Assembly (NCBI RefSeq): GCF_963667045.1
Contig: NZ_OY762934.1
Coordinates: 4,842,501-4,906,500, forward strand
Source of the DNA: an uncultured Cohaesibacter sp.
GTDB taxonomy: Bacteria; Pseudomonadota; Alphaproteobacteria; Rhizobiales; Cohaesibacteraceae
Length of the DNA stretch: 64,000 nucleotides
Reading direction: 5' to 3'
Part shown: positions 39,521 through 64,000 of the stretch, piece after piece
Layout of the letters: the number at the start of each line of letters is the position of its first letter
Position numbering within the stretch: position 1 is the stretch's first letter
Notes under the pieces: generated by a model
What the model was told of the DNA's origin: nothing
What the model saw: the letters and a program-made list of their open reading frames with translations, nothing else
The model's database searches: none
Translations under genes and position numbers: made by a program

Positions 39521-39598
<78 letters not shown>

Positions 39599-39689
39599 CC
39601 TCTGAAGATATTTCAAGGAACAGTCTTGAAATGTGCTGAACGGAAGATCACATGGTCTTTCGAAGGTTGGTGTCGCTAACTGAATTTGT

Positions 39690-39766
<77 letters not shown>

Positions 39767-50478: not shown

Positions 50479-51732
50479 TCAGGCGAACATGTAAGCGCCT
50501 ATATAGGAGCCCTTCTGCGGGGCGGGAGGGGCGAAAAAGATCGCTGATCCGATGTGTGATATATATTCGTTGAGGCGGTCCAGTGACCCCAGCCGGCTCT
50601 GAATTGCTTCGAAAATGGCTGGGTCATTCTGATAGCTGACAAAATGCAGCCCGGCATCCAGCATCCCGACCTGGTTGATACCGTCCGTATAATTGTAGGA
50701 ACGGCGCAACAGCTTGAGGCCTCCCATATTTTCATGGGCGGCAAGGCTCATATGCGACGTTTTCGGTATGACCGTGTCGCCACTTTTCTTCAGGGCTTCG
50801 AAATCGGGCTCGTCAAATTCATGTTCTCCGGAAAGAGGGGCGCCTGATACCTTGAAACGTCCAAACACGTCATTTTGGTCATCAACCCGGTCCGTGTCCC
50901 AGCTTTCGATAAACATGCGGATCTTGCGGGAGACCATATAGGAGCCGTTATGCTGCCATTCCGGGCCATCCTTGATCCAGACAAAACGCTCATAGTCTTC
51001 CTGTGTGGTGATGTTGCGCGTGCCGTCCCGGAAGCCGAGCAGATTGCGCGGGGTTGTCTGTCCCGGCCCTGCGGATGCCCGGCCAAAGCCCATGATTGCC
51101 CAACGGGTGGAGGCCACACCGGCTGCCTTGGCGATGCGCGCCAGAATGCGAACGGCATGATAGGTTACCTGCGGATCATCCGCACAGGCCTGCACGGCCA
51201 GATCGCCGCCGGAAAGCTCGGCCTTCAGGGCATCTCCAGGCAGATCATGGAGTGAGCGCATCAGGGGCGGCCTGTAGTCTTCAAGCCCTTTGACATCAGA
51301 GAAGACCTTCGGGCCGAGCCCGACTGTGACGGTGAGCGATGCCGGGCCCAGATCAAGGGCCTCGCCAGTCTCCAGAACCACAGCATTGTCGCGCTCCGGA
51401 TCCACAAGTCCAACCGGTTTGCCCGCCATCATCTGTGCGATGGCGGCGGACCATCGAGCGAGCAGGATCTGGATATCTCGCGGGTTCAGTGACGTCAGAT
51501 TGAACGCCATGAATTGGGAATAGCGCTGGGGAGCGGTTTGAATGCCTGCCTGAGGCCCTTGGCCATAAAAGGGGTAGGACTTGCTCAGGTCGATGTGGTC
51601 TTGAGGTGACTCTGCCGATGCTTGGGTCGCTTTGGCGACAACGGCTCCCAAGGAGGCGGTTGCTGCAACCCCGAGCAGATTGCGCCGCGACACCCCCGTG
51701 TTCGAGGTTGAAACTGGTTTCTTGTTCGTCAT
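50479..51732 (-). CDS. efeB: EfeB, Dyp-type haem peroxidase/deferrochelatase, Tat-exported
   Basis: The 417-residue protein has a Tat signal (SRRNLLGVAATASLGAVVAKA). The Dyp fold includes the GxxDG motif as GFRDGTRN near residue 235 and a conserved His-containing DDQNDVFGRFKVSGAPL segment downstream. EfeB acts with EfeO and EfeU in iron acquisition, either as a peroxidase oxidising Fe(II) or as a haem deferrochelatase. An AAGGA precedes the ATG at 51732. A stable hairpin lies between efeO and efeB. Confidence 0.93.
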   Translation of the reverse strand: MTNKKPVSTSNTGVSRRNLLGVAATASLGAVVAKATQASAESPQDHIDLSKSYPFYGQGPQAGIQTAPQRYSQFMAFNLTSLNPRDIQILLARWSAAIAQMMAGKPVGLVDPERDNAVVLETGEALDLGPASLTVTVGLGPKVFSDVKGLEDYRPPLMRSLHDLPGDALKAELSGGDLAVQACADDPQVTYHAVRILARIAKAAGVASTRWAIMGFGRASAGPGQTTPRNLLGFRDGTRNITTQEDYERFVWIKDGPEWQHNGSYMVSRKIRMFIESWDTDRVDDQNDVFGRFKVSGAPLSGEHEFDEPDFEALKKSGDTVIPKTSHMSLAAHENMGGLKLLRRSYNYTDGINQVGMLDAGLHFVSYQNDPAIFEAIQSRLGSLDRLNEYISHIGSAIFFAPPAPQKGSYIGAYMFA

Positions 51733-51775
51733 GGTCTGAGGTTCCTTCTGGGGCTGGTCTCGCAAGGCCCGAAAG

Positions 51776-51800
51776 AGGCTGCCGGACTTTCCGGCAGCCT
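51776..51800 (-). promoter_or_regulatory. Intercistronic hairpin between efeO and efeB
   Basis: AGGCTGCCGGA (51776-51786) pairs perfectly with TCCGGCAGCCT (51790-51800) around a 3-base loop. On the minus strand it is followed by CTTTCGGG, a poor T-run. It may lower readthrough into efeB or stabilise the efeUO message. Confidence 0.6.
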
Positions 51801-51811
51801 TGGGCGCGCAA

Positions 51812-53008
51812 TCAGTCAGCGGTTGCGACTTTTTCCGCGATACGGGAAAGAGGCTCTTGCAGGGACTGGATTGCCTGGCTCAGCTTGACGGTGTCTTCTG
51901 CCTTCAGCTCTTCGGAATAGAGCTTGTAGCCACCGGGAACAGAGGCATCCCGATATCCGTCCAGAAGGGTCCGGACCTTTTCAAATTCTGCGCTGACCCG
52001 CTCGGACAGATCGGCATCGATTTGTTCCATGCCTGGCTGCAGATAGGCAAAGGCCTGCTGGGCGCCTTCCACATTGCCCGCAAAATCGAGCATATCGAAG
52101 TGGCTGTAGGCTTCTTCTTCGCCGGTGATCTTGGTGTTCTGAACCTCTTCGAGCAGGTCTGCTGCACCATTGGCCAGATCTTCAGGCAGATACTCAAGGG
52201 TCGGAGACACGTCGTCGAGCAGCTTCACATTCTTGAGCAACTCGGCCGCATAGGCCCTAGTCTGATCCGTGATCTTGCCCGCCTCGAACAGGTCCCTTTC
52301 GATGGCGTGGTAACCGTGCCAGCCGACTTCGGGGTCGATATTGGAGGCACGCATATCGATCAGATAGTCAAGGTTGCCGTGATTGTCTGTTGCGTCAAAG
52401 CCGTCGAGCACGAAGCCGTCGACATCAGATTCAACGCGTTCATAGAATGGGCGCGCCAGCGGGTAGTCGTGTTTGGCTTTTTCAAGATCGCCAGCGTCGA
52501 TGTCGTTCTTGAGGCGGGAAACGGCAACAACCATGGCGTCGATCGTTTCATTGACATATTGGGCGTAGCCGTCGGTGCCTTCTTCAAGGATCTTGGAAAT
52601 TGTGCCAGAGGGCCGTGGGGCTGCCTCACCGGTTACGCTGAAGGCAACCTTGTCCTCTTTCGCGCCCGGGCAATAGATTTCATAAGTGCCGCCACCAAGG
52701 GTCACCGTGAAGGATACGGTCGGCAGGCCGGGGGCAAGATTTTCCTTCTCCCCGATGATGCGGTTGCCGTTAAGCAACTCGACCTCGGTGAGGGCCGTGG
52801 CTGTCTTGTTGGTAACCGAGAAGGTGACGGGACCTGCCTCGACGCTGGATTTGTCGAGCACGCAGGCGCCGCCATTGTCGTCTGTCAGGGTGATGGCAAC
52901 CTGTTCGACTTCTGCTGCGGCGAGCGGGCTTATCAAGCCGCCAAGGATCAGAAATGTGGATAGGGAGGTGGTGGCAAGAATGGTTTTGGATAGAGAATTA
53001 CGCTGCAT
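51812..53008 (-). CDS. efeO: EfeO, periplasmic iron-uptake protein
   Basis: The 398-residue protein has a signal peptide (TILATTSLSTFLILGGLISPLAAA). An N-terminal cupredoxin-like domain covers about residues 32-120, with CVLDKSS and EIYCPGAK as Cys-containing parts. The imelysin-like (M75) domain that follows holds the metal motif GWHGYHAIERD near residue 240. EfeO passes iron to the EfeU permease. An AAGGAC precedes the ATG at 53008, and the start overlaps the end of efeU by 11 bases. Confidence 0.95.
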   Translation of the reverse strand: MQRNSLSKTILATTSLSTFLILGGLISPLAAAEVEQVAITLTDDNGGACVLDKSSVEAGPVTFSVTNKTATALTEVELLNGNRIIGEKENLAPGLPTVSFTVTLGGGTYEIYCPGAKEDKVAFSVTGEAAPRPSGTISKILEEGTDGYAQYVNETIDAMVVAVSRLKNDIDAGDLEKAKHDYPLARPFYERVESDVDGFVLDGFDATDNHGNLDYLIDMRASNIDPEVGWHGYHAIERDLFEAGKITDQTRAYAAELLKNVKLLDDVSPTLEYLPEDLANGAADLLEEVQNTKITGEEEAYSHFDMLDFAGNVEGAQQAFAYLQPGMEQIDADLSERVSAEFEKVRTLLDGYRDASVPGGYKLYSEELKAEDTVKLSQAIQSLQEPLSRIAEKVATAD

Positions 53009-54638
53009 GATGATGTCCTTTTGCTGCAGTGTCGTCGGCGTCTTGGCCAATGTTGGAATGAAAACGCTCCGGAGCGAGGCGTCGGGCTTGAGCGAGATTC
53101 CGGGCGCCAAACAGCGCTAGAAAAACAGAAATGAAGGCTAGAATGGTGGGCAGAATACGGGCCCAGAACGTCCACTCATCCTGAGCGATCTTGAAATTGA
53201 CGAGAGCTGTCTGGACCCGCGAGATGTGGTCGTCGCTGACATGCCAACGCCCCAAAGGCAGAACCAGATCGGTTTTCAAATCCTGCGGTATCGAGCGCAC
53301 ACTCAGGGTTCTGGGGGATAGCAATCCACCATCGTTGAGGGTCATCGTCAGCGAATTTCGGCCAGAGGCATCGAACAGAATGCCATTGGTTGTCCAGACG
53401 CTTGCCTGTAGCGCGTGCAACCACCTGACTTGATAGGGGCCGGGATAGCGCGTCGGATTGAGGCCTATCGGCTTGCGGCCTCCTGATAATTTGACGATCT
53501 CAGAATAGGTCAACTCTTCAGGCAAACCGGAGGGCTCGCTTTTGCTGTTGATGTCCCACAACCGGGAAGGCAGCCCGTCATGCTCACCTTGGGTGGCCTC
53601 AGACTGGGGGAGGGGCAGAGACAGAGTCAGCGTGCCGATGTTGTCGGGTCGAGCCAGAACCAATGCGCCCTGATCCGATAGACTGGCGCTGGCGACATCG
53701 GCCTTGCGCACCATCACCCTTGCTGCGGTGTTCGGGAAACGGATCGAAGGGGTTGGCGAGAGAAGGAAAAGAAATGCGGAAACAGTAAGGCAAAGCAGAG
53801 CAACACCAATCTTGATCCTGCCAGAACCAGAAAGGCCCGGTCTATGGGATTGCGGCCAATAGATGAGGAGCGCAACAGGTAGCAGATAGAGACACCAGCC
53901 AAGTCCCTCGATCAGTCTGGGATCAGGAGGGATGCCCAGCATTCCCGTTATCAGTGCCGAGCGCATGGTTCCGGCTGCTACCAGCCACGACAGATCGAGT
54001 ATCTGTTGTTGGCCTGCATTGAGCCAGCCAGCTTCATGAGCCGTTCGCAAAGTAGAAACACAGAGGCCAGCGGCCACCAGAATAAGAAAGGCACCTGTTA
54101 TCCGGAAAAATCGGGAGAGATTGATTTTTACCCCGCCGATATAGATGCCCCAACCAATCACGACTGACAGCAACAGCCCCAGGGTCGCGCCAACAGCGGC
54201 CCAAGCCGCCGATTGCGCCACGGAAAAGGTTGCCAGAAGAAATACGCTGGTTTCAAAGCCTTCTTTGAGGACGGCGAGAAAGGCCATGCTGGCCAGTGCG
54301 TAGGAGCCCGGTTTTGAAATGGTCACGGCAGCCCTTGCTTCAAGCTCGCCTCTCATAGCGCCGCCGTGGCTGTTCATCCACGCGATCATGCCAGTCACGA
54401 AGAAGATTGCGACCACGCCAATCAGCGTTTCCAGCGTCTCCTGCTGGGCTTGGGGCAGGGCCTTTTCGACCATGTGCAGGCCAATGCCGACCATAAGGGA
54501 AATCAAGATAGCCAACAGGACGCCAATCCACATCGGACGCATGCTTTGATGATTTCGATCGAGGAAAGCCGCGATGATGCCAACGATAAGAGAGGCTTCC
54601 AACCCTTCACGCAGGCCAATGACGAGTGTAGCCAGCAT
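52998..54638 (-). CDS. efeU: EfeU iron permease with long C-terminal extension
   Basis: EfeU is an FTR1-family permease for ferrous/ferric iron. Residues 1-280 form the usual seven-helix permease with REGLE at 10-14 and the second motif KEGFE at 125-129. The protein continues to 546 residues, nearly twice the E. coli length. The extension has one helix at about residues 285-305, a polar, beta-rich region of about 200 residues that should be periplasmic, and a final helix (ARILPTILAFISVFLALFGA). The ATG at 54638 follows AAAGGACAC. Confidence 0.93.
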   Translation of the reverse strand: MLATLVIGLREGLEASLIVGIIAAFLDRNHQSMRPMWIGVLLAILISLMVGIGLHMVEKALPQAQQETLETLIGVVAIFFVTGMIAWMNSHGGAMRGELEARAAVTISKPGSYALASMAFLAVLKEGFETSVFLLATFSVAQSAAWAAVGATLGLLLSVVIGWGIYIGGVKINLSRFFRITGAFLILVAAGLCVSTLRTAHEAGWLNAGQQQILDLSWLVAAGTMRSALITGMLGIPPDPRLIEGLGWCLYLLPVALLIYWPQSHRPGLSGSGRIKIGVALLCLTVSAFLFLLSPTPSIRFPNTAARVMVRKADVASASLSDQGALVLARPDNIGTLTLSLPLPQSEATQGEHDGLPSRLWDINSKSEPSGLPEELTYSEIVKLSGGRKPIGLNPTRYPGPYQVRWLHALQASVWTTNGILFDASGRNSLTMTLNDGGLLSPRTLSVRSIPQDLKTDLVLPLGRWHVSDDHISRVQTALVNFKIAQDEWTFWARILPTILAFISVFLALFGARNLAQARRLAPERFHSNIGQDADDTAAKGHHHAA

Positions 54639-54794
54639 TTTGTGTCCTTTGTGACCAGACAAGTGGCTGACAGAAAGCGCAGCTCACCTGATCAGCGGTT
54701 GTCACGCCAACCAACAGGACAAAGCCTCTCTGTTCCGCCTTCCGGGAAGGGAGGCAGTTGGGCAGGATCTGATCGTGTTGTTGGTTGTAAGTTA

Positions 54795-54817
54795 TTTATG
54801 AGTTATTTACTCATAAA
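54795..54817. promoter_or_regulatory. Palindromic operator candidate upstream of efeUOB
   Basis: TTTATGAG (54795-54802), seven bases, then CTCATAAA (54810-54817) form a perfect inverted repeat, 157 bases upstream of efeU. It is embedded in a short direct repeat of GTTATTTA. AT-rich palindromes of this size are typical for Fur, Irr or RirA. It matches none of their published consensus sequences exactly. Confidence 0.45.
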
Positions 54818-54839
54818 TTAGTGAAGGGTGCCGCTCTGT

Positions 54840-55749
54840 CAATCTGTATGATTTAGAACGTTTCTACGAACGCGTGCCAGCGGCGCATTTCCGGGAAAAA
54901 ATGGCTGTTGAAACATGAGTATGATTTTCATATTTTCTGTTGGTGACGTCATTTTCCGGATTTCTCAGTGCAGGGATAGCATCTCTGGAGCCGATATTGG
55001 TGGGCCTCCAAGAAATCCCTCCGGTTTGGGATAGAGGTAAGCGCTGTGCCGCTCACACATTAGGTTTGAAGTTCCAAGGCAGGGGCCCATCAATGTCGCT
55101 TTGCTTATAACCATTTGTGATAGCTATGAGGCGCGCGCGCTAAGGAGTTTCGCGCCGTTGGCAAATGGTGGCCACCGGTATCATGCTGTTCCTTGTTGGG
55201 GCGTCCTCGACCATGTCATGGGTGATAGCCTTCACCGGGGTGCCGGGCATGACCTGAACATAGGTGCCAGACAGGTTCCACGGAAAGGTCTCTCTCGGGG
55301 AGCCTAGGCCGAACCGGTTGTGCTCAAAGTCCTTGGTGGCAACCACGAGGCCGGTGATGTGCCTGTTCCTGCAGTGAGAATTCTGACCGCTGTGGTGCTG
55401 GTCAGGAACGGGATGACGAGGCGGATGGACTCGTTCAGAAGCACCTCGAGCATCAGGCGGGATGTATGTTCTCGGCCTGCAGCTCGTTGCGGGCCATCGT
55501 CATCATGGTCTGTCTGATAGCGCAGGATCGCGCCGAACTGATCCTACGGTGGATCCAGCCCCAAATACTGCAGCCCGGTCATGGCATTGATGGACCCGGC
55601 TGCCTCCACATAGCGATGTCGGCGTGTCAAATACGGAAGATTACGGTGTGTAGAGGTCGCGATGGATAGCGTTTGGTGCCGGATCGGGGAACCATGCCGC
55701 AGGCTGATCGGGGCCGTGTCGAATGACTTGGCGGTCTGTAGATACAGCA
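54840..55749. other. Non-coding, possibly eroded coding DNA
   Basis: About 0.9 kb has no convincing gene. Short minus-strand frames carry protein-like stretches, for example LMLEVLLNESIRLVIPFL (about 55390-55460) and VVATKDFEHNRFG (about 55320-55350), in different reading frames. That pattern suggests an old gene broken by frameshifts. I could not identify the family. Confidence 0.4.
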
Positions 55750-55783
55750 ACGGGGTGCTTCCTGGTGTCAGGATGCACCCCGT
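55750..55783 (-). terminator. Long hairpin downstream of the AKR-Rid gene
   Basis: ACGGGGTGC pairs with GCACCCCGT, and the inner TCCTG pairs with CAGGA around GTGT, with one T-T mismatch. The stem is about 15 pairs. No T-run follows on the minus strand, so it may be a 3' end protector or a Rho-dependent end. Confidence 0.45.
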
Positions 55784-55814
55784 GATTGCGTTTCAGGACC
55801 GATTTGGGGACTGG

Positions 55815-57287
55815 TCAGGCTTTTGAGGGTGGCAGCACGGCCTCCGCTTCGATTTCCACCCGATAGGGGCCGACGAGCTTTGCCACCTGCAACAGGGTGT
55901 TGGCCGGGCAAACCTCGGAGAAGAAGCGACCATGGGCGATGGATACGGCTTCGCAGTCTTCCACATCAACGAGATAGACACGGGTCCGCACCACATGCTC
56001 CGGTCCGGCACCATGGGCCCGGATGGCGCCGACGATCTTGTCCAGAATATAGGTTGTCTGGGAGGCGGCGTCGTTTGGCGCGACGATATGGTCCGCACCG
56101 TGCGTTGCCGTCGTGCCGGAGACGAGAATGCGATCCCCAACGCGGATGGCACGGCAATATCCCGCCAGAGGTTCCCATTTGGAGCCGGAGAAAACGCGGG
56201 CGCGATCCTCAAGCTTCGGGTCTGGCACAGAGGGGTTGACCGGTGCAATGGAGGAGAGGTGGTGGGACAGGTCGCCTGATGCTGTCAGGAAGGGGGGCTT
56301 GCGATATTCGTCGCCACAGTCACCCGGTACGGGTGTCATCCCGGCAAAGGCAGCGTCAAGAGCGGCGTGGTCTTCGGCGTCGAGTTGGAACTTAAAGACA
56401 TTGAGGTTGCTGGCCCGATGTTCGGCCTCTGTAATGCGTGCCCCGATGATGGTTGCTGCGACAGAGGGGTGTTCCAGCACCCAGCGACTGGCGACGTTGG
56501 AAAGTGAGACGCAGTGTTTTCTGGCAATGGCATCGGCGGCTGCCAGCAGCGCCTGGAAGGAGCCCCAGCCACCGGCGGTGTCGATGAAGCGCTTGTATTT
56601 CATCCGGCTCCAGTCGGCGATCTCAATCGGCTCCGGTTTGCCCAGCCACTTCTCGGAGATGAACCCGCCGCAAAGGGTGCCATAGGCCAGCAGCTTGATG
56701 CCATATTTGGTGCAGAGCGCGGAGAGCGGCCCTGCTGCGCGGCGATCGACGAGGGAGAAGCTGACCTGGTTGGACACAATCCGGATCCCTTCCTCAAGTG
56801 CCAGTGCCAGATGGGCGGCGTCGAAGTTGGTGACGCCGATGGCATTGATGAGCCCTTCATCGCGCAGCTTTTCCAGCTCATGCATGGCGTCAAGCCAGCG
56901 CGGGTCTTCAAAGCTCCACCAGTGGAACTGCAACAGATCGACCTTGGCTACGCCGAGGCGGTCTAGGCGTTCCTGTACACCGGCACGGACGACTTCCGGC
57001 GTCATGGGCCCAGGTTCCGGGCACCATTTGGTGAAGGCACGGATCGACGTGTTCTTGGGGCTGTTGGCCAGCAGGGCGCCGGTGATCAGCTCCGCCGAAC
57101 CATAATGGTCGGCCATGTCGAAGCTGTCAAAGCCCGCCTCGGCATAGGCGGCAAGGCGTGGGGCGGTCTCTGCCGGGTCGAGCAGGTCTCCGTCCTTTTC
57201 CAGATCGGCAACCTGCCACAAGCCGCAGACGAGGCGGGAAATGTTGAGCCCGGGGGCGAGATCGATACGATCAGGTGTGTCAGACAT
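55815..57287 (-). CDS. Aldo/keto reductase fused to a Rid (YjgF/YER057c/UK114) domain
   Basis: The 490-residue protein has two parts. Residues 1-350 are an aldo/keto reductase with the catalytic tetrad Asp57, Tyr62 (SFDMADHYG), Lys87 (AFTKWC) and His122 (LLQFHWW). Residues 378-490 form a Rid domain (RVGDRILVSGTTA, VVRTRVYLVDVED, VEIEAEAV). At the position of the RidA Arg105 (PAR in RidA) this chain reads PAN, with Asn463. That loss is characteristic of Rid4-7 subfamilies and argues against ordinary enamine deaminase activity. It is the last gene of the livGFHM operon, overlapping livM by 8 bases. Confidence 0.9.
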   Translation of the reverse strand: MSDTPDRIDLAPGLNISRLVCGLWQVADLEKDGDLLDPAETAPRLAAYAEAGFDSFDMADHYGSAELITGALLANSPKNTSIRAFTKWCPEPGPMTPEVVRAGVQERLDRLGVAKVDLLQFHWWSFEDPRWLDAMHELEKLRDEGLINAIGVTNFDAAHLALALEEGIRIVSNQVSFSLVDRRAAGPLSALCTKYGIKLLAYGTLCGGFISEKWLGKPEPIEIADWSRMKYKRFIDTAGGWGSFQALLAAADAIARKHCVSLSNVASRWVLEHPSVAATIIGARITEAEHRASNLNVFKFQLDAEDHAALDAAFAGMTPVPGDCGDEYRKPPFLTASGDLSHHLSSIAPVNPSVPDPKLEDRARVFSGSKWEPLAGYCRAIRVGDRILVSGTTATHGADHIVAPNDAASQTTYILDKIVGAIRAHGAGPEHVVRTRVYLVDVEDCEAVSIAHGRFFSEVCPANTLLQVAKLVGPYRVEIEAEAVLPPSKA

Positions 57288-58278
57288 TTGTCTTTTGTCC
57301 TTCAGAGAGAGAATTGGGAGCGCGGCGCAGGGCCCGCCGCAGGGGCGCGCGCAGGGTGCCTGCCTCGCCCAGGATTCCATATGGGCGTAGCAACAGCACA
57401 AGGCAGAGGGCAACGCCGATGAGCACGATTTGCAAGGAGGCAGCGCGGGCCTGTTGGTCGGGCGGAAAGATGCTGGCCACGAGGCTGCCGGACAGAGCCC
57501 AGATCGCCCAGACCAGTATCGCACCGAGGATAGCACCGCGCATGTTGCCTGATCCGCCGACAATCAGCATGGTCCAGACCTGAAAGGTGAGGGTCGGCAG
57601 ATAGTTGTCCGGCGCGATGAAGCCGATGAAGTGGGCCTGTGCCGCGCCACCAAGCCCCATGACGAAGCCGCCGATGGCGAAGGCCTGCAGGCGATAGGTG
57701 ACGGGATCCTTGCCCAGCGCCTTGGCCGCTTCTTCGTCCTCCCGCAAGGCCCGCAGAACGCGCCCCCACGGAGAGCGAGTCAGGTGCTGCAAGGCGAGAT
57801 AGCAGACCAGCACCAGCACGATCAGCACGGCAAGATTGGCTGCGGCGAACAGGCCGGGCTGTTCGGCAAGAGTGCCGAAGGGGCGGGGAATGAAGCCGAT
57901 GCCGAAGGGACCGCCGGTGATGCCTTCCAGATTGAGCAGGGCGAGCTGGATGACCACAGCCGCACCGAAGGTGGCGATGGCCAGATAGTCCGATCGCAGG
58001 CGCATGGTGAGGGCTCCGAGCAAGAAGCACAAGAAGCCTGCGCCCAGCCCGCCGCCGAGCCAGCCGATGACAATCGGCAGATCGAACCCGCCCAGTCGTC
58101 CGTCGATTGCGGGCGTTGTCAGGATCGAGGAAACATAGGCCCCGACGGCGACGAAACCGGCAACGCCGACATTGAACAGGCCGGTCTGGCCCCATTGCAG
58201 ATTGAGGCCGAGGCAGATGACCGCGTAGGTCAGGGCCATGGTGAGGAAAAAGGCGCCGTAGGAGAGAAGGTCGATCAT
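57280..58278 (-). CDS. livM: Branched-chain amino-acid type ABC permease (LivM)
   Basis: The 332-residue membrane subunit has about eight to ten helices. LivM signatures include NLQWGQTGLFNVGVAGFVAVGAY near residue 28 and the coupling segment GRVLRALREDEEAAKALGKD near residue 180. The ATG at 58278 overlaps the end of livH by 4 bases, and the last 8 bases overlap the next gene. The ligand of this importer is not necessarily an amino acid, since HAAT-type systems carry many small molecules. Confidence 0.92.
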   Translation of the reverse strand: MIDLLSYGAFFLTMALTYAVICLGLNLQWGQTGLFNVGVAGFVAVGAYVSSILTTPAIDGRLGGFDLPIVIGWLGGGLGAGFLCFLLGALTMRLRSDYLAIATFGAAVVIQLALLNLEGITGGPFGIGFIPRPFGTLAEQPGLFAAANLAVLIVLVLVCYLALQHLTRSPWGRVLRALREDEEAAKALGKDPVTYRLQAFAIGGFVMGLGGAAQAHFIGFIAPDNYLPTLTFQVWTMLIVGGSGNMRGAILGAILVWAIWALSGSLVASIFPPDQQARAASLQIVLIGVALCLVLLLRPYGILGEAGTLRAPLRRALRRAPNSLSEGQKTNV

Positions 58279-59189
58279 GCCGCAGCCTTTCCGAAGATAC
58301 CCTGCGGCCGCAACAGCAGCATGGCAACGAGGATGACGAAGGAAACCGCTGCCCGCCATTCAGCCCCGATGATCTGCACGGTGAAGGCCTCTGCCAGTCC
58401 CACCATCAGCCCGGCCAGCATGGCACCGGGGACCGAGCCGATACCACCGAGGATGGAGGCGGCAAACAGCGGCAGCAGCAGGTCCAGCCCCATGGTCGGG
58501 CGGATCTGGACGACAACGCCGGACATGACGCCGCCAACGGCAGCCAGCGCTGCCCCGAGCATCCAAACCATGCGGATGACGGCCCGCGTGTCGATTCCGG
58601 CAAGGCTGGCAAGCGCCGGGTTCTCCGACACCGCCCGCATGGAGCGGCCCGCAGCGGACCGGGTCAGCAGCAGGTGGACGGCGATCACCATGACCACGGC
58701 CAGCACCAGCACCAGCAACTGGTCCGGCGTGGCGCGCAGACCAGGCAGGATGGGCCGAGCAATCTGCAGTGCCGTCGTGAAATAGGCAGGGCTTGAGGTG
58801 TAGATGAATTCAAGCAGGTTGCGCAGCGCAAGGGCCGCGCCGAAAGACGACATCACCAGAATGATCTGGGCCGAGCCAGCATTGCGCAGGCGCCCGAACA
58901 GCAGCCAGTCGACCGTCAGGGCGACAAGACCGGTGAGAATCATCGAGGCAATCATGGCGATGGGCACGGACCAGCCAAAGGAGAAAGGGCCGATCGGGGT
59001 GCCAAGGCCGGGCAACAGGGCGCCGAGCGCGGCACTGACCGTGAGGGCCAGATAGGCCCCCCAAGACAGGAGCTCGCCGTGGGCGAAGTTGGCAAAACGC
59101 AGGATGGAATAGGTGAGGGTGACCCCAATGGCTCCAAGGCCGATGATCGAGCCGTTGACAAGGCCATCCATGATTGGTTGCAGGGTCAT
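58275..59189 (-). CDS. livH: Branched-chain amino-acid type ABC permease (LivH)
   Basis: The 304-residue membrane subunit has the LivH features GSIIGLGAIGVTLTYSILRFANFAHGE near residue 14 and the coupling loop TRSAAGRSMRAVSENPALASLAGID near residue 180. It starts with ATG at 59189 and overlaps livF by 4 bases and livM by 4 bases, so translation of the operon is probably coupled throughout. Confidence 0.93.
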   Translation of the reverse strand: MTLQPIMDGLVNGSIIGLGAIGVTLTYSILRFANFAHGELLSWGAYLALTVSAALGALLPGLGTPIGPFSFGWSVPIAMIASMILTGLVALTVDWLLFGRLRNAGSAQIILVMSSFGAALALRNLLEFIYTSSPAYFTTALQIARPILPGLRATPDQLLVLVLAVVMVIAVHLLLTRSAAGRSMRAVSENPALASLAGIDTRAVIRMVWMLGAALAAVGGVMSGVVVQIRPTMGLDLLLPLFAASILGGIGSVPGAMLAGLMVGLAEAFTVQIIGAEWRAAVSFVILVAMLLLRPQGIFGKAAA

Positions 59190-59923
59190 TGCGCTGTCTC
59201 CTCGGAACCACCGCCCAGATAAAGCTCGGCGACCACCGGATCGCCCCTGAGCTCATCCGAGGGAGCGTCATGGGCGACCTTGCCCTCAACGAGGATCACC
59301 CCGCGGGACGCGACATTGAGCCCGACGCGAACATTCTGCTCGACCAGCAGGATGGTAATGCCGGTCTGGTTGATCATGCTGATCCGGGCAAAGACCTCAT
59401 CGACCAGCATTGGGGACAGACCGGCGGATGGCTCGTCAAGGATCAGCAGTTTCGGGTCGGTGATGAGGGCGCGGGCCACCGCAAGCATCTGCCGCTGGCC
59501 GCCCGAAAGGGCTCCGGCGCGTGTGGACGGACGTTTGGCGAGATCGGGGAACATCGCGAACATTGCCTCGATGCGCTCTGAACGGAGCTGTTTGGGCAAG
59601 ATCTGGGCCGAGATCTGCAGATTTTCGCGGATGCTCATCTGGGTGAAGATGTTTTCCGTCTGCGGCACAAAGGTCATGCCGCTGTGCAGCTTCATGTGGG
59701 CTGGCAGATGGGTGATGTTTTCTTCCCTGAGGAACACCAGCCCCGAGTGGATTGGTACCAGACCGGCAATCGCCTTGACCAGTGTCGACTTGCCAGCGCC
59801 GTTTGGTCCCAGCAGGACGACGAACTCACCTTGTCGGATCGTGAGGTCTATGCCGTTGATGATCGGCAGGTCGGGCTGGTAGCCGGCATGAAGATGCCTG
59901 AGTCTGAGAATGTCCGGCGTCAT
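59186..59923 (-). CDS. livF: Branched-chain amino-acid type ABC ATPase (LivF)
   Basis: The 245-residue ATPase has Walker A GPNGAGKST near residue 40, the Q-loop FVPQTENIF, the signature LSGGQRQMLAVARAL near residue 145, Walker B LLILDEPSAGLSP and a C-terminal LYLGGG. This is the LivF type by length and Q-loop. The ATG at 59923 overlaps livG by 4 bases. A longer open frame upstream lies inside livG. Confidence 0.93.
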   Translation of the reverse strand: MTPDILRLRHLHAGYQPDLPIINGIDLTIRQGEFVVLLGPNGAGKSTLVKAIAGLVPIHSGLVFLREENITHLPAHMKLHSGMTFVPQTENIFTQMSIRENLQISAQILPKQLRSERIEAMFAMFPDLAKRPSTRAGALSGGQRQMLAVARALITDPKLLILDEPSAGLSPMLVDEVFARISMINQTGITILLVEQNVRVGLNVASRGVILVEGKVAHDAPSDELRGDPVVAELYLGGGSEETAQ

Positions 59924-60738
59924 GCGGCATCTCCCAGATAGGCGCGGACAACTTCCGGGTCGCGGATAACCACGTCGGGGGCTCCTTCGGCCAGCTTCTG
60001 GCCAAGAGCCATCACCATGACCCGGGAACACAGCCGGGCCACCATGTCCATATTGTGCTCGATGAGCAGGATGGTCACGCCCTGCTCATTGAGGGTGACA
60101 ATGCGGGTCATGATGTCCTGAAGCAGGGTCGGGTTGACGCCGGCCGCCGGTTCATCGAGCAGGATGACCTTGGGATCGGCCATCAGGATGCGTGCCAGCT
60201 CCAGCAGCTTGCGTTGCCCGCCGGAAAGCACGCGGGCTTTCTCGTTCTCCAGATGGGAGAGCATCAGGAAGTCCGTCAGGTGGCGGGCTTTTTCGAGCGC
60301 CTGTGCTTCATCGCGGCGACTTCTGGCCGGGCGAAAGAAGGCGCTTATGGCCTTCTCGCCAGACTGGTCCTGCGCACCGCAGAGCACATTTTCAAGCACG
60401 GTCATTTCGGGAAAGGGGCGGGGGATCTGAAACGTCCGGCCAAGGCCGCGTCTCAGTCTCTTCTCGGCTCCTTCGCGGCTGATATCCTGCCCCTTGAGGT
60501 GGATCGTGCCCGATGTGGGGAGCAGGGATCCGGCCAGCATGTTGAACATGGTGGTCTTGCCCGCGCCGTTGGGGCCAATGAGGCCCATGATTTCACCTTG
60601 GTGGAGATCAAGGGACAAATCATCCACTGCCTTGAAGCCCTGAAAGCTGCGGCTGAGAGACCGGGCTTTCAAAATTGGCTCTTCATCCGATGGCCGTGCG
60701 TCTTGCGCGCTTTGTCGGCCTTCCATGGTCTGCGTCAT
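59920..60738 (-). CDS. livG: Branched-chain amino-acid type ABC ATPase (LivG)
   Basis: The 272-residue ATPase has Walker A GPNGAGKTT near residue 57, the LivG-typical RTFQIPRPFPEMTVLENVL, the signature LSGGQRKLLELARILM near residue 170, Walker B ILLDEPAAGVNP and the H-loop IEHNMD. It is the first gene of the minus-strand operon. The ATG at 60738 follows GGGGAT; a GTG at 60741 adds one residue. The 16-bp palindrome at 60807 lies in front. Confidence 0.93.
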   Translation of the reverse strand: MTQTMEGRQSAQDARPSDEEPILKARSLSRSFQGFKAVDDLSLDLHQGEIMGLIGPNGAGKTTMFNMLAGSLLPTSGTIHLKGQDISREGAEKRLRRGLGRTFQIPRPFPEMTVLENVLCGAQDQSGEKAISAFFRPARSRRDEAQALEKARHLTDFLMLSHLENEKARVLSGGQRKLLELARILMADPKVILLDEPAAGVNPTLLQDIMTRIVTLNEQGVTILLIEHNMDMVARLCSRVMVMALGQKLAEGAPDVVIRDPEVVRAYLGDAA

Positions 60739-60806
60739 CACATCCCCAGATGCTTCCTGTCCGGCATGTGATCGCGAGGTTTGGTCCGGACGGGTTTATA
60801 TCTTTT

Positions 60807-60822
60807 ATCTTTGATCAAAGAT
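60807..60822. promoter_or_regulatory. Operator candidate between livG and gntR
   Basis: ATCTTTGATCAAAGAT is a perfect 16-bp palindrome lying 69 bases from livG and about 105 bases from the gntR start. Such TTTGATCAAA-centred palindromes are common for GntR-family regulators with FCD domains. A TTGACA that could be a -35 element is at 60825-60830 on the plus strand. Confidence 0.6.
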
Positions 60823-60926
60823 TATTGACACAAGCCGCTTTTGCAAGCAAAAAAAGAGAGAGCAACAGAAAAAGCCCCATACAGGTGGGAATGCCATTTT
60901 CTGAGAGTGGGAGACGCAGCCAGACC

Positions 60927-61664
60927 ATGAAAAACTTGCTAAAGGCAGATCAGGCAGGCGATGACAAGGCGATACCGGGGCTGGGGTCCATTGCACGGGG
61001 ATCCTTGCAGGAACGGGTTTACCAGGAACTTGCCCGATCACTGATGCATGGCGTCTTTGCTGCCGGTCAGGTGCTGAGGATGCAGGCGCTGGCTGACACG
61101 CTGCAGGTTTCCATCATGCCGGTGCGTGAGGCGCTGGCGCGGCTGGTCTCGGAACAGGCATTGGAAATGATGCCCAACCGCTCGACTCGCGTGCCGCTGA
61201 TCACCTCCGAGCGGCTGGAAGACCTTGCCCGGGTCCGCTGCCTCATCGAGGGGGAACTGGTGCGGCTGGCCACCCCGCACACCGATGCAGCCACGTTGCA
61301 AAGCCTGCGCGACATGACCGCCGCCTGCGAGGCCGCGTTCCAGAAGCCTCTCGATGATGAGCAGGTCAGTGTAACCTCCGGGCTCAATTATCAGTTTCAT
61401 TTTACCGTCTATGGCATGGCCGGGTCGGATGTGTTGTTACCGATCGTGCGCAGCCTGTGGATGCAGTCCGGCCCCTTTGTGCGCGCCTCCGCGCTCGTCT
61501 ATGGCCGCAATCCCTCCCTGACCGCCGTGCATCATCACTGGGCTCTGATTGAGGCGCTTGCCGCTGGCGATGCCGAGGCTGCCGTTGAGGCGCTGCATGC
61601 CGATATCACCCAGTCCTTCAATCTGTTGCGCAGCGACATAGCCGAAGGAGAGGGCGATGACTGA
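60927..61664 (+). CDS. GntR-family transcriptional regulator (FCD type)
   Basis: The 245-residue regulator has an N-terminal winged helix-turn-helix (about residues 25-90, LQERVYQELARSLMHGVFAAGQVLRMQALADTL, then VSIMPVREALARL). A helical FCD-type effector domain follows, with NYQFHFTVYGMAGS and a HHHWALIEALAAGD segment that should hold the metal-binding histidines. The neighbours suggest it controls both divergent operons through the 60807 palindrome. The ATG at 60891 is an alternative start. It overlaps the next gene by 8 bases. Confidence 0.9.
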   Translation: MKNLLKADQAGDDKAIPGLGSIARGSLQERVYQELARSLMHGVFAAGQVLRMQALADTLQVSIMPVREALARLVSEQALEMMPNRSTRVPLITSERLEDLARVRCLIEGELVRLATPHTDAATLQSLRDMTAACEAAFQKPLDDEQVSVTSGLNYQFHFTVYGMAGSDVLLPIVRSLWMQSGPFVRASALVYGRNPSLTAVHHHWALIEALAAGDAEAAVEALHADITQSFNLLRSDIAEGEGDD

Positions 61665-62016
61665 CAGCTTTGAATTGTGGGATCTCCGCGTGGAAGTCGT
61701 GGCCCCCGAAGGCGGGCCGATCTATTGCGGCGCCAAGGTTGGCGACTATTTCGAACTGCATGGCGAGATGATCCACATGCCTCCCGGACAGGGATTTTCC
61801 CTCTATTCGCTGGCGGCGCTTCTGCCTCTTTTGCCAGCCAAACAACGCGACACGCACCCCAATGACTGGATGAGCACCGACGCCGAGGTTGCTTGCCCTG
61901 ATCCCAATTGCAGCACGCGATTCCGGATCACGCGCACCCGCAAGCGCAGCTTCCGTCACGCGGAAACAACAGCCGTGCCGCTTGATGCGCCCAAGGCGCC
62001 AGAAAGCGAGACCTGA
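61657..62016 (+). CDS. TIGR04076 family protein
   Basis: The 119-residue protein matches the TIGR04076 family by its order of features: DLRVEVVAPEGGPIYCGAKVGDYFELHG at the start, then a MPPGQGFSLYSLAALLPLLPAKQR middle and the VACPDPNCSTRFRITR end. The family is small, its function is unknown, and it often sits in oxidoreductase operons. The CPDPNC motif and Cys24 could bind a metal. It overlaps gntR by 8 bases and lies 1 base before the second aldo/keto reductase. Confidence 0.82.
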   Translation: MTDSFELWDLRVEVVAPEGGPIYCGAKVGDYFELHGEMIHMPPGQGFSLYSLAALLPLLPAKQRDTHPNDWMSTDAEVACPDPNCSTRFRITRTRKRSFRHAETTAVPLDAPKAPESET

Positions 62017-62017
62017 G

Positions 62018-63070
62018 ATGATCCGAGTTCCAAGATACAGCCTGACGCCGGACTATGAGATATCGCGCGTCATCCGCGGTGGCTGGCAGTTGGCCGGTGG
62101 TCATGGTGCCATTGACAAAAAGGCCGCTGTCGATGATCTGCTGGTCACGGCAGAGGCTGGGATCGTCACCTTCGACTGTGCCGATATCTACACCGGCGTT
62201 GAAGAGATCATCGGGGCGTTCCGCAAGGTTTATGGCGACAGGCATGGGGCCGAGGCGCTGGATGCCATTCATGTCCATACCAAATGTGTGCCCGATCTCG
62301 ACAAGCTTACCAGCCTGACCCGTGTGCAGTTGCAGGAAACCATTGATCGCTCGCGCGTCCGTCTGGGCGTAGAACGGCTTGATCTGGTGCAGTTCCACTG
62401 GTGGGATTATGAGCTGGGAGACTGGCTTGAGGCGATGCATTGGCTGCATGAGTTCCAGCAGGAAGGTCGCCTCAGGTTCCTCAGCTGCACCAATTTCGAC
62501 AGCGATCACGTCGCCACCATGAAGGCCGAAGGGCTGCCACTGGCTACGATCCAGCTGCAATATTCGCTGCTGGACCGCCGCCCGGAGAAGCGCATGGCCT
62601 CGCTTGCCGCAGCGCATGATTTCCATTTTCTGTGCTATGGCACGGTGGCCGGTGGCTTTCTCTCCGACCGCTGGCTGGGCGTGGCTGAACCTCAGGGCGA
62701 GCTGGAGAACCGGTCGCTGACCAAATACAAGCTGATCATCGAGGATTTCGGTGGCTGGGAGCTGTTCCAGTCGCTGTTGCAGACCCTGCGCAGCATTGCC
62801 GACCGGCATGAAACCGACATCTCGACCATTGCTTCGGCCGCCGTTCTGACCCGTCCCCATGTGGCTGGCGTCATCGTTGGGGCGCGCAACCGCAGCCATC
62901 TCGATGCCAATCTGGGCATTGGCGCGGTCACGCTGTCGCCGGAAGATCTTTCCCGGATCGAGGCCATTCTCGATCAGTCGACCCCGCTTGAGGGCGATGT
63001 CTACACATTGGAGCGCGATCGTTTCGGGCGGCACGGGTCCATCATGAAATACAACCTCAACAAAGAATAG
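62018..63070 (+). CDS. Aldo/keto reductase
   Basis: The 350-residue NAD(P)H-dependent oxidoreductase has the tetrad Asp53, Tyr58 (TFDCADIYTG), Lys89 (HVHTKC) and His127 (LVQFHWWD). It is a paralogue of the reductase part of the fusion at 55815: both share QFHWW and the LDRR, KWLG/RWLG and KYK patterns. It lacks a Rid domain. The start at 62018 leaves one base after the TIGR04076 stop. It is followed by the livJ-like gene after 53 bases. The substrate is not known. Confidence 0.9.
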   Translation: MIRVPRYSLTPDYEISRVIRGGWQLAGGHGAIDKKAAVDDLLVTAEAGIVTFDCADIYTGVEEIIGAFRKVYGDRHGAEALDAIHVHTKCVPDLDKLTSLTRVQLQETIDRSRVRLGVERLDLVQFHWWDYELGDWLEAMHWLHEFQQEGRLRFLSCTNFDSDHVATMKAEGLPLATIQLQYSLLDRRPEKRMASLAAAHDFHFLCYGTVAGGFLSDRWLGVAEPQGELENRSLTKYKLIIEDFGGWELFQSLLQTLRSIADRHETDISTIASAAVLTRPHVAGVIVGARNRSHLDANLGIGAVTLSPEDLSRIEAILDQSTPLEGDVYTLERDRFGRHGSIMKYNLNKE

Positions 63071-63123
63071 GCTGAAGCCTTCGCCAATCGGCCCTTGAGG
63101 GCCCCTTCCTACAGGAGCGTGAA

Positions 63124-64000
63124 ATGAAGAAAACTTGTTTAGCACCATTGGCCGTTCTGGCGGGTCTTGGGGGCACCATGCTGCCCGCCATGGCGTGTGA
63201 CGTCGAAGTGGGCATGGTCATGGAACTGACAGGGCCTGCCGGTGTTTACGGTCAGGCTGGTGCCAAGGCCGTTGAAATGGCCTTCAAGGATATCAACGAT
63301 GCTGGCGGTGTGCTGGGCTGTTCGCTGAAAGCCGACACCCGTGACAGCCAGAGCCAGGGCAACGTGGCCGTTGATCAGGCAACGCAGCTGGTCAACATCA
63401 AGCATGTGCCGGTCGTCATCGGTGGCATCATCTCCTCGGTTTCCCTGCCGATCCTCACTTCAGTGACGGCGCCTGCCAAGGTGGTTCAGGTTTCTCCGGC
63501 TTCCTCTTCCCCGACGCTCACCCAGTTGGGCAAGGAAGGCAAGACTGGCGGCTATTTCTTCCGCACCATCACCTCTGATGCTCTGCAGGGAACGGCTGCG
63601 GCGCAGTATGCCATCGACAAGGGCCTCAAGAAGCTGGCGATCATTCACGTCAACAATGACTTCGGCGTCAACATGATGCGTGAATTCTCCTCTGCCTTCG
63701 AGGCACTCGGCGGCGAAATCACGTCCGTTACTGCCTATAATGAAAAGCAGGCCAACTATTCCTCGGAAGCCACAGCAGCGCTGTCCGGCGATCCGGAAGC
63801 GCTCTATCTCGTCAGCTACCCGGTTGACGGAGCCACCATCGCCCGTGCCTGGATCTCCAACGGCGGCCCGCAGAAATTCCTGCTCAATGATGGCATGAAC
63901 TCCTCCGACTTCATCAAGGCAGTCGGCGCGCAGTATCTCAACGAAGCCTATGGCACGTCTTCGGGCACCGACGAGACCGCTTCGACCAAATATTTCTATG
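63124..64000 (+). CDS. LivJ-like ABC substrate-binding protein, cut by window end
   Basis: At least 292 residues are present; the C-terminus lies outside the window. A signal peptide (LAPLAVLAGLGGTMLPAMA) is followed by a type I periplasmic binding fold of the LivJ kind (VEVGMVMELTGPAGVYGQAG, AFKDINDAGGVLG, VIGGIISSVSLPILTSV, YFFRTITSDALQG, HVNNDFGVNMM). It should deliver the ligand to LivHMGF encoded across the divergent promoter. An AGGAG lies 7 bases before the ATG. Its ligand is unknown. Confidence 0.92.
   Translation, partial: MKKTCLAPLAVLAGLGGTMLPAMACDVEVGMVMELTGPAGVYGQAGAKAVEMAFKDINDAGGVLGCSLKADTRDSQSQGNVAVDQATQLVNIKHVPVVIGGIISSVSLPILTSVTAPAKVVQVSPASSSPTLTQLGKEGKTGGYFFRTITSDALQGTAAAQYAIDKGLKKLAIIHVNNDFGVNMMREFSSAFEALGGEITSVTAYNEKQANYSSEATAALSGDPEALYLVSYPVDGATIARAWISNGGPQKFLLNDGMNSSDFIKAVGAQYLNEAYGTSSGTDETASTKYFY

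Follow-up and report, generated by a model that had tools for sequence, protein, structure and literature searches.

A conserved two-operon importer and aldo/keto reductase cassette in Cohaesibacter, and candidate substrates for it

Here we describe a cassette of nine neighbouring genes at the end of a 64,000-nucleotide stretch (the window; G000:C1:4842501-4906500) of the 5.24 Mb genome of an uncultured Cohaesibacter sp. This genome is referred to as G000 and the stretch that carries its cassette as L088. The genes lie in two divergent operons, at 55815-60741 on the minus strand and 60927-64386 on the plus strand, and encode a LIV/HAAT-type importer, two aldo/keto reductases (AKRs), a TIGR04076 protein and a GntR/FCD regulator.

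Layout and control of the cassette

The minus operon holds genes for an AKR fused to a Rid domain (AKR-Rid; 490 aa, 55815..57287; PF00248 then PF01042, the Rid part lacking the RidA Arg, N463), a LivM-type permease (57280..58278; PF02653, with a start codon and an 8-base overlap), a LivH-type permease (58275..59189; PF02653, with a 4-base overlap), a LivF-type ATPase (59186..59923; PF00005; best NCBIfam match UrtE, then LivF, both below their cut-offs) and a LivG-type ATPase (59920..60741; PF00005 and PF12399; best NCBIfam match LivG, below its cut-off). On the plus strand follow the GntR/FCD transcriptional regulator (60927..61664; PF00392 and PF07729, above cut-offs), the TIGR04076 protein (119 aa, 61657..62016; 68.8 bits against a profile cut-off of 33), the second AKR (AKR2; 350 aa, 62018..63070; PF00248) and a LivJ-type binding protein (420 aa; PF13458, Peripla_BP_6). 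The last gene crosses the window edge, with 63124..64000 inside the window and its true end at 64386; the whole gene lies at L088:9625-10887.

Much of this layout had been claimed by an earlier sequence-only reading of the same DNA. The full HAAT importer that it saw split over two divergent operons is borne out, all five subunits being recognised by profile and giving a complete LIV/HAAT composition of two ATPases, two BPD_transp_2 permeases and one Peripla_BP_6 protein, and the TIGR04076 protein and GntR/FCD regulator that it named both belong to their families above the profile cut-offs. The two reductases, one Rid-fused, are indeed paralogous (36.8% identity over 329 aa). Coding overlaps of 4-8 bases, said to join most genes, are present at 5/7 within-operon junctions: AKR-Rid/LivM (-8), LivM/LivH, LivH/LivF and LivF/LivG (-4 each) in the minus operon and regulator/TIGR04076 (-8) in the plus operon, where TIGR04076/AKR2 (+1) and AKR2/LivJ (+53) are spaced. 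The number of genes had been put at eight and needs correcting to nine. Scans for promoters and terminators gave matches no more frequent than in shuffles.

The divergent spacer contains a perfect palindrome, ATCTTTGATCAAAGAT (60807..60822, no strand), a candidate operator of the GntR/FCD protein. A spacer entered the count if LivG and the regulator diverge and are separated by less than 900 bases, and it was taken together with 30 bases from each of the two genes; this gave 68 spacers, 67 of them distinct, C. marisflavi being counted twice (L008, L150). The palindrome core TTTGATCAAA was found in 56/68 spacers (55/67 distinct), compared with a mean of 0.075 and a maximum of 1 in 200 Markov-type shuffles, and TTGATCAA in 64/68. 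When up to one mismatch is allowed, ATSTTTGATCAAASAT occurs at a single place in the 5.24 Mb genome, 60807-60822, and a search for a wider regulon in this genome showed none beyond that one site. Because the site is single, the cassette looks self-contained, apparently with one switch, and since no other gene seems to share this switch the specific function should lie within the nine genes. We infer that the GntR/FCD protein acts on the palindrome, from where it would repress both operons and release them when the imported compound, or a product of it, binds.

Conservation and spread

The sequence-only reading hung on conserved co-occurrence of its gene set in other genomes, and such conservation was found. 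A scan of genome contigs with AKR-Rid yielded at least 594 pattern matches; a relative is encoded by 570 of them, from which the best 80 were taken as loci. For 64 of these best 80 there is full flanking sequence, at least 9 kb either side of AKR-Rid; the remaining 16 are cut or short, with L026 and L036 too short for comparison. All nine genes are present in 58/64 full-flank loci (median span 8.5 kb), and in 53/64 they stand in the identical order LivJ-AKR2-TIGR04076-regulator / LivG-LivF-LivH-LivM-AKR-Rid. Of the six exceptions, L056, L061, L066 and L070 are without the regulator, whilst L016 and L028 are without the regulator, TIGR04076, AKR2 and LivJ. The gene set is found together far above chance.

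Of 289 sampled members of the class, 16 gave an AKR match of 1e-60 or better, and eight of these genomes, among them the window's, carry a near-full-length AKR-Rid fusion. AKR-Rid is present in 9/20 Cohaesibacteraceae genomes, 8 of the 9 being Cohaesibacter, and the closest named relative among the matches listed is Cohaesibacter marisflavi (fusion protein 91%). In another Cohaesibacter, G298, the livG match falls in two pieces in different frames (L151:14033-14759), and this copy may be broken. Outside the genus the best copies are from Mangrovicoccus (80%, among the matches listed) and an Alloyangia plasmid (78.8%), both of which we take to be Rhodobacterales. As these are closer than the copy from a sister genus within the family, which reaches only 63% and is differently arranged (L144), sequence identity suggests that the cassette has probably spread between orders. 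Base composition was uninformative as to a foreign origin (G+C 0.611 in the cassette vs 0.564 upstream and 0.607 downstream). Relatives of TIGR04076 and AKR2 also occur on haloarchaeal plasmids (L119, L125), and the pair is thus not limited to bacteria.

The enzymes and the flanks of the cassette

Asp, Tyr, Lys and His form the catalytic tetrad of aldo/keto reductases. In AKR-Rid this tetrad (D57/Y62/K87/H122) is present in 96/96 aligned rows (94 distinct records; this set and that of AKR2 each contain two records twice). AKR2 has D53/Y58/K89 in 103/103 rows and H127 in 83/103, the window copy keeping it.

The Rid domain of the fusion is less orthodox. Its best solved relative is 3i7t, presumably of Rid6 type. 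The active-site Glu (E478) is kept in 96/96 rows and the Tyr position is Y or F in 95/96, and yet the position of the RidA Arg is Asn (N463) in 96/96 fusions as well as in three unfused relatives. The residue taken to mark RidA imine deaminases, Arg105 in E. coli TdcF numbering, is thus Asn at the aligned position. Passages of PMC4433059 report that RidA loses nearly all of its imine hydrolysis when this Arg is changed to Ala and that the residue is missing from Rid4-7; in PMC5619798, likewise as far as the passages seen go, deaminase activity is described for six Arg-bearing Rid1-3 proteins and the Arg is held to be the determinant. Both place the Arg-less Rid4-7 outside the predicted deaminases in those passages, and in neither is an assayed Rid6 protein described. 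Because its Arg is replaced by Asn, we do not count the fusion among the RidA deaminases on this residue. This residue test weakens the handling of an imine by the Rid domain, as put forward in the sequence-only reading; the Arg-less domain may still have a related binding or catalytic role.

The TIGR04076 gene is closely tied to AKR2. Across 385 genomes of the class it was detected at 23 places in 21 genomes, and the 1.5 kb flanks retrieved include an AKR2 homologue at 21 of these places (exceptions L153 and L158). In the locus set it is directly upstream of AKR2 in 96/101 pairs. We infer from this that the TIGR04076 protein is a subunit or accessory of AKR2. Three Cys are near-invariant (C24, C80 and C85, each in 99/101 rows), and a phmmer search against solved chains, with E up to 1, gave no match. 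The authors of a Bilophila study, in a part of PMC8667426, give a member of the family a potential role in redox or iron-cluster metabolism. The TIGR04076-AKR2 pair also occurs near TRAP-like genes in L131 (read by eye) and near dipeptide-type ABC genes in L135 (read by eye) and L119 (annotated), an association with other importer types that suits a catabolic module.

Two further observations concern AKR2. A SnoaL/DUF4440-like protein of ~140 aa, which scores below the Pfam cut-off for DUF4440, is found in 22/109 loci (L045, L118 and L124 among them), in most cases between AKR2 and LivJ. A plasmid of Rhizobium jaguaris (L122) carries a relative of AKR2 with no TIGR04076 annotated nearby; this relative adjoins an acyl-CoA dehydrogenase and is near a non-ribosomal peptide synthetase.

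Beside the cassette, three genes at 50479-54662 on the minus strand were read by eye as a Dyp-type peroxidase, an EfeO-like protein and an FTR1-type iron permease (EfeUOB-like iron uptake). Between them and AKR-Rid lie ~1.15 kb (54663-55814) with no listed open reading frame of at least 80 aa beyond the ends of the flanking genes; here, 55406-55612 shares 69% identity with the gene for a FAD-binding protein on two Rhizobium plasmids and is perhaps a decayed gene. Downstream of the cassette, L088:10999-18957 carries asparaginase-like, LysE-like, thiolase and phenylacetate-type (paa) genes. A phenylacetate link was considered, these neighbours being common to the window's genome and two of its close relatives, G300 and G291, and dropped because they are not general (3/8 Cohaesibacter genomes), the other five Cohaesibacter genomes with AKR-Rid giving no match over the stretches taken. 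Elsewhere in the window, at 39521-39766, are two tandem tRNA-Met genes (CAT).

Candidate substrates and comparison with known systems

The general function of the cassette is probably the uptake and redox processing of one small molecule. LivJ-GFHM would import a small amino-bearing compound, AKR2 with its TIGR04076 subunit would make one carbonyl/alcohol conversion and AKR-Rid a second, and the Rid domain would bind a reactive nitrogen-bearing intermediate in place of the classical RidA deaminase reaction. Among solved structures, those nearest to LivJ are for the most part amino-acid binding proteins of the LIV type. LivJ of the window's clade has an Asp (NDG) at what we take to be the amine-binding acid position of the LIV-type proteins; this Asp and a Ser, presumably ligand-site residues, fit an amino-acid ligand, a match that is suggestive only. 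Our fuller reading, which we hold tentatively and at somewhat less than even odds, is that the compound is of kynurenine or oxidised-tryptophan type. It would most likely be a kynurenine-type or an oxidised (lactam-type) tryptophan metabolite, whose carbon could in many other genomes then enter the kynureninase and anthranilate route.

The clue comes from the neighbourhoods. A tblastn search over a set of 109 loci found a tryptophan dioxygenase in five and a kynureninase in the same five. Kynureninase is above the curated cut-off in L023, L046, L077, L081 and L185; the tryptophan dioxygenases of L023 and L077 are above theirs and that of L185, which reaches 165 of 390.7 bits, is a partial or divergent copy, the L079 and L046 copies being left out of the dioxygenase profile scan. 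In L077 and L081 the two genes sit between livM and AKR-Rid. On the haloarchaeal plasmid L119, TIGR04076-AKR2 is within 10 kb of an indoleamine dioxygenase and a kynureninase. KynU-like genes are also present in L130 and L133, and others adjoin HyuA-HyuB at L177, L178 and L179, in genomes that also hold the module; where scanned (L133, L177) they fall just below the cut-off. The divergent kynureninase paralogue of L177-L179 may belong to a separate pathway, from a lactam to a kynurenine-like acid. The class V pyridoxal-phosphate enzyme of L120 was considered as a kynureninase and rejected, being a weak 28% match and unsupported by NCBIfam.

Moreover, kynureninase is found in 33/50 cassette genomes (50 chosen from the 80) vs 64/289 in the class. 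Taking as module genomes the 16 with an AKR match at 1e-60 or better, a rule by which G162 counts as non-module although L184 shows the module there, kynureninase is present in 12/16 vs 52/273 others (p 5e-6) and two or more matches in 7/16 vs 5/273 (Fisher p 2.5e-7). As a rough bound, ~0.19 chance neighbours are expected among the 33 kynureninase genomes, compared with 5 seen (Poisson 2e-6, or 1e-3 if these are taken as ~3 independent lineages).

Several observations weigh against a kynurenine-type compound. All of these genome-level tests ignore relatedness and genome size, and the control gene hutU is enriched too (11/16 vs 72/273, p 7e-4). Within the hutU genomes the excess of kynureninase is not significant (8/11 vs 34/72, p 0.19), although that of a second copy stays so (5/11 vs 4/72, p 0.0015); part of the co-occurrence is down to generalist genomes. 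A divergent or second kynureninase is also seen in genomes that lack the module, such as G194, and a kynurenine-route neighbour is seen in just 5 of the first 81 loci. In other LivJ clades the amine-site acid is Asn or Gln. A link to isatin and indole-3-acetate (IAA) was tried and rejected: the neighbours are striking in four loci and there is no genome-level link (0/16). Closest to home, kynureninase and tryptophan dioxygenase gave no match at 1e-30 in 8/8 Cohaesibacter genomes that carry AKR-Rid, among them the window's; of the nine genomes of the family with AKR-Rid only G307 has both. Kynureninase was not found in 17/50 other cassette genomes either, 12 of them Rhizobium and its kin. The cassette therefore does not need the kynureninase route. 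Either a compound of this class is handled by the AKRs alone, or these neighbourhoods are aromatic-catabolism islands. In Cohaesibacter the AKR steps would have to suffice, for instance to gain nitrogen. Stated in full, this would be a kynureninase-independent scavenging of kynurenine or oxidised tryptophan by two members of one uncharacterised AKR group, one with an obligate TIGR04076 subunit, possibly metal-binding through its three Cys, and the other with a repurposed Arg-to-Asn Rid domain acting on a nitrogen-bearing intermediate; in so specific a form we regard it as unlikely.

An amine- or lactam-type substrate, as suggested in the sequence-only reading, is retained on indirect grounds, with variant loci adding HyuA/HyuB, DAO-type FAD oxidases or kynureninase-like enzymes. 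It is conceivable, though doubtful, that the ligand has no relation to tryptophan and is a cyclic amide such as a lactam or hydantoin, and that the AKRs act on its opened or oxidised product. In the variant loci L130, L133, L136 and L184, HyuA and HyuB are accompanied by an unfused Rid, which is of the Asn type in all three aligned; a DAO oxidase is also present in L136 and L184 and a protein of arylmalonate-decarboxylase/Asp-Glu-racemase type in L130 and L133, and in L191 TIGR04076 adjoins HyuAB with no AKR2 match. However, HyuB in the 109-locus set matched only L130, L133 and L136, and HyuA only those three plus a 26% match in the haloarchaeal L125, none of which is a nine-gene cassette. Neither gave a match in or beside the window's own cassette (L088), the rest of that genome not being searched. 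Moreover, a kynureninase-like enzyme accompanies the Hyu genes in L130, L133 and L177-L179, which fits a tryptophan-derived lactam equally well. Among other variants, a Mesorhizobium plasmid (L118) has a DAO oxidase in place of AKR-Rid with DUF3830 added, and a Caballeronia plasmid (L120) has an FAD oxidoreductase, DUF3830 and the class V enzyme with the importer and no annotated AKR. DUF3830 accompanies DAO-type oxidases and related importers (L118, L120, L127); a literature search on it found nothing.

The solved relatives of LivJ and its Ser and Asp positions would also fit an ordinary branched-chain or general amino-acid importer whose operons the reductases merely share. We consider this improbable, since the same enzymes stay with the importer in 58/64 loci, the one palindrome of the genome lies between the two operons, and the listed NCBIfam matches of LivM, LivH, LivF, LivG and LivJ are all below their cut-offs. 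Detoxification of reactive carbonyls or xenobiotics, in place of catabolism, is a little less probable again: some solved AKR relatives are DepB and DON 3-epimerase, which we take to be toxin-processing enzymes, but a dedicated importer fits nutrient uptake and the TIGR04076-AKR2 pair is seen again close to importer genes of other kinds and to catabolic genes.

The least probable alternative is that an indole acid is imported and converted towards isatin and anthranilate: next to the cassette, L034, L063, L064 and L067 have a protein that matches isatin hydrolase B (PDB 4j0n; E 2e-132 in L067), accompanied by MarR-like and IOR-like genes, and the Variovorax iad binding protein is described as binding IAA in the portion seen of PMC10374108, but isatin hydrolase is found in 0/16 module genomes, although the query matched 10/289 genomes of the class, and in none of 20 Cohaesibacteraceae genomes, a search run with no positive control, nor was there a match in the window's own genome. 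The block of isatin hydrolase, MarR-like protein and two-subunit IOR-like oxidoreductase could itself turn isatin via isatinate into anthraniloyl-CoA.

The uptake and processing of a kynurenine-type or oxidised-tryptophan compound is thus the reading that we favour. The parts are of known kinds; the cassette is real and conserved and its enzymes are unstudied. The sequence-only reading knew of no characterised pathway with this gene set, and a literature search, judged by titles and the openings of abstracts, likewise turned up none. The cassette is a bounded unit that bears on the role of TIGR04076, the task of an Arg-less Rid domain and an orphan nutrient of alphaproteobacteria from soil and sea. 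Moreover, the ligand of LivJ could replace the annotation 'branched-chain amino acid transporter' by a real substrate across many genomes.

Among known systems, tryptophan-kynurenine-anthranilate catabolism has genes that adjoin or interrupt the cassette in several lineages, whereas its kynureninase and dioxygenase are unmatched in the window's genome. The Variovorax iad auxin operon, as presented in the portion seen of PMC10374108, also combines binding-protein-dependent import of an aromatic with catabolic genes; the words 'aldo', 'isatin' and 'dioxindole' do not appear in the main text of that paper. With the RidA/YjgF deaminases the fusion has the PF01042 family and the active-site Glu in common, and it differs in its Asn for Arg and its position behind an AKR. 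Both reductases share PF00248 and the D-Y-K-H residues with the AKR superfamily (IolS, YhdN, DepB and kin), and match solved chains only distantly (phmmer best E 2e-18 and 1.5e-19); unlike these, one copy is Rid-fused and the other paired with TIGR04076. Lastly, the importer has the same subunit make-up as LIV/HAAT-type systems (LivJ-HMGF), but here it is split over two divergent operons and built in with the AKRs and TIGR04076.

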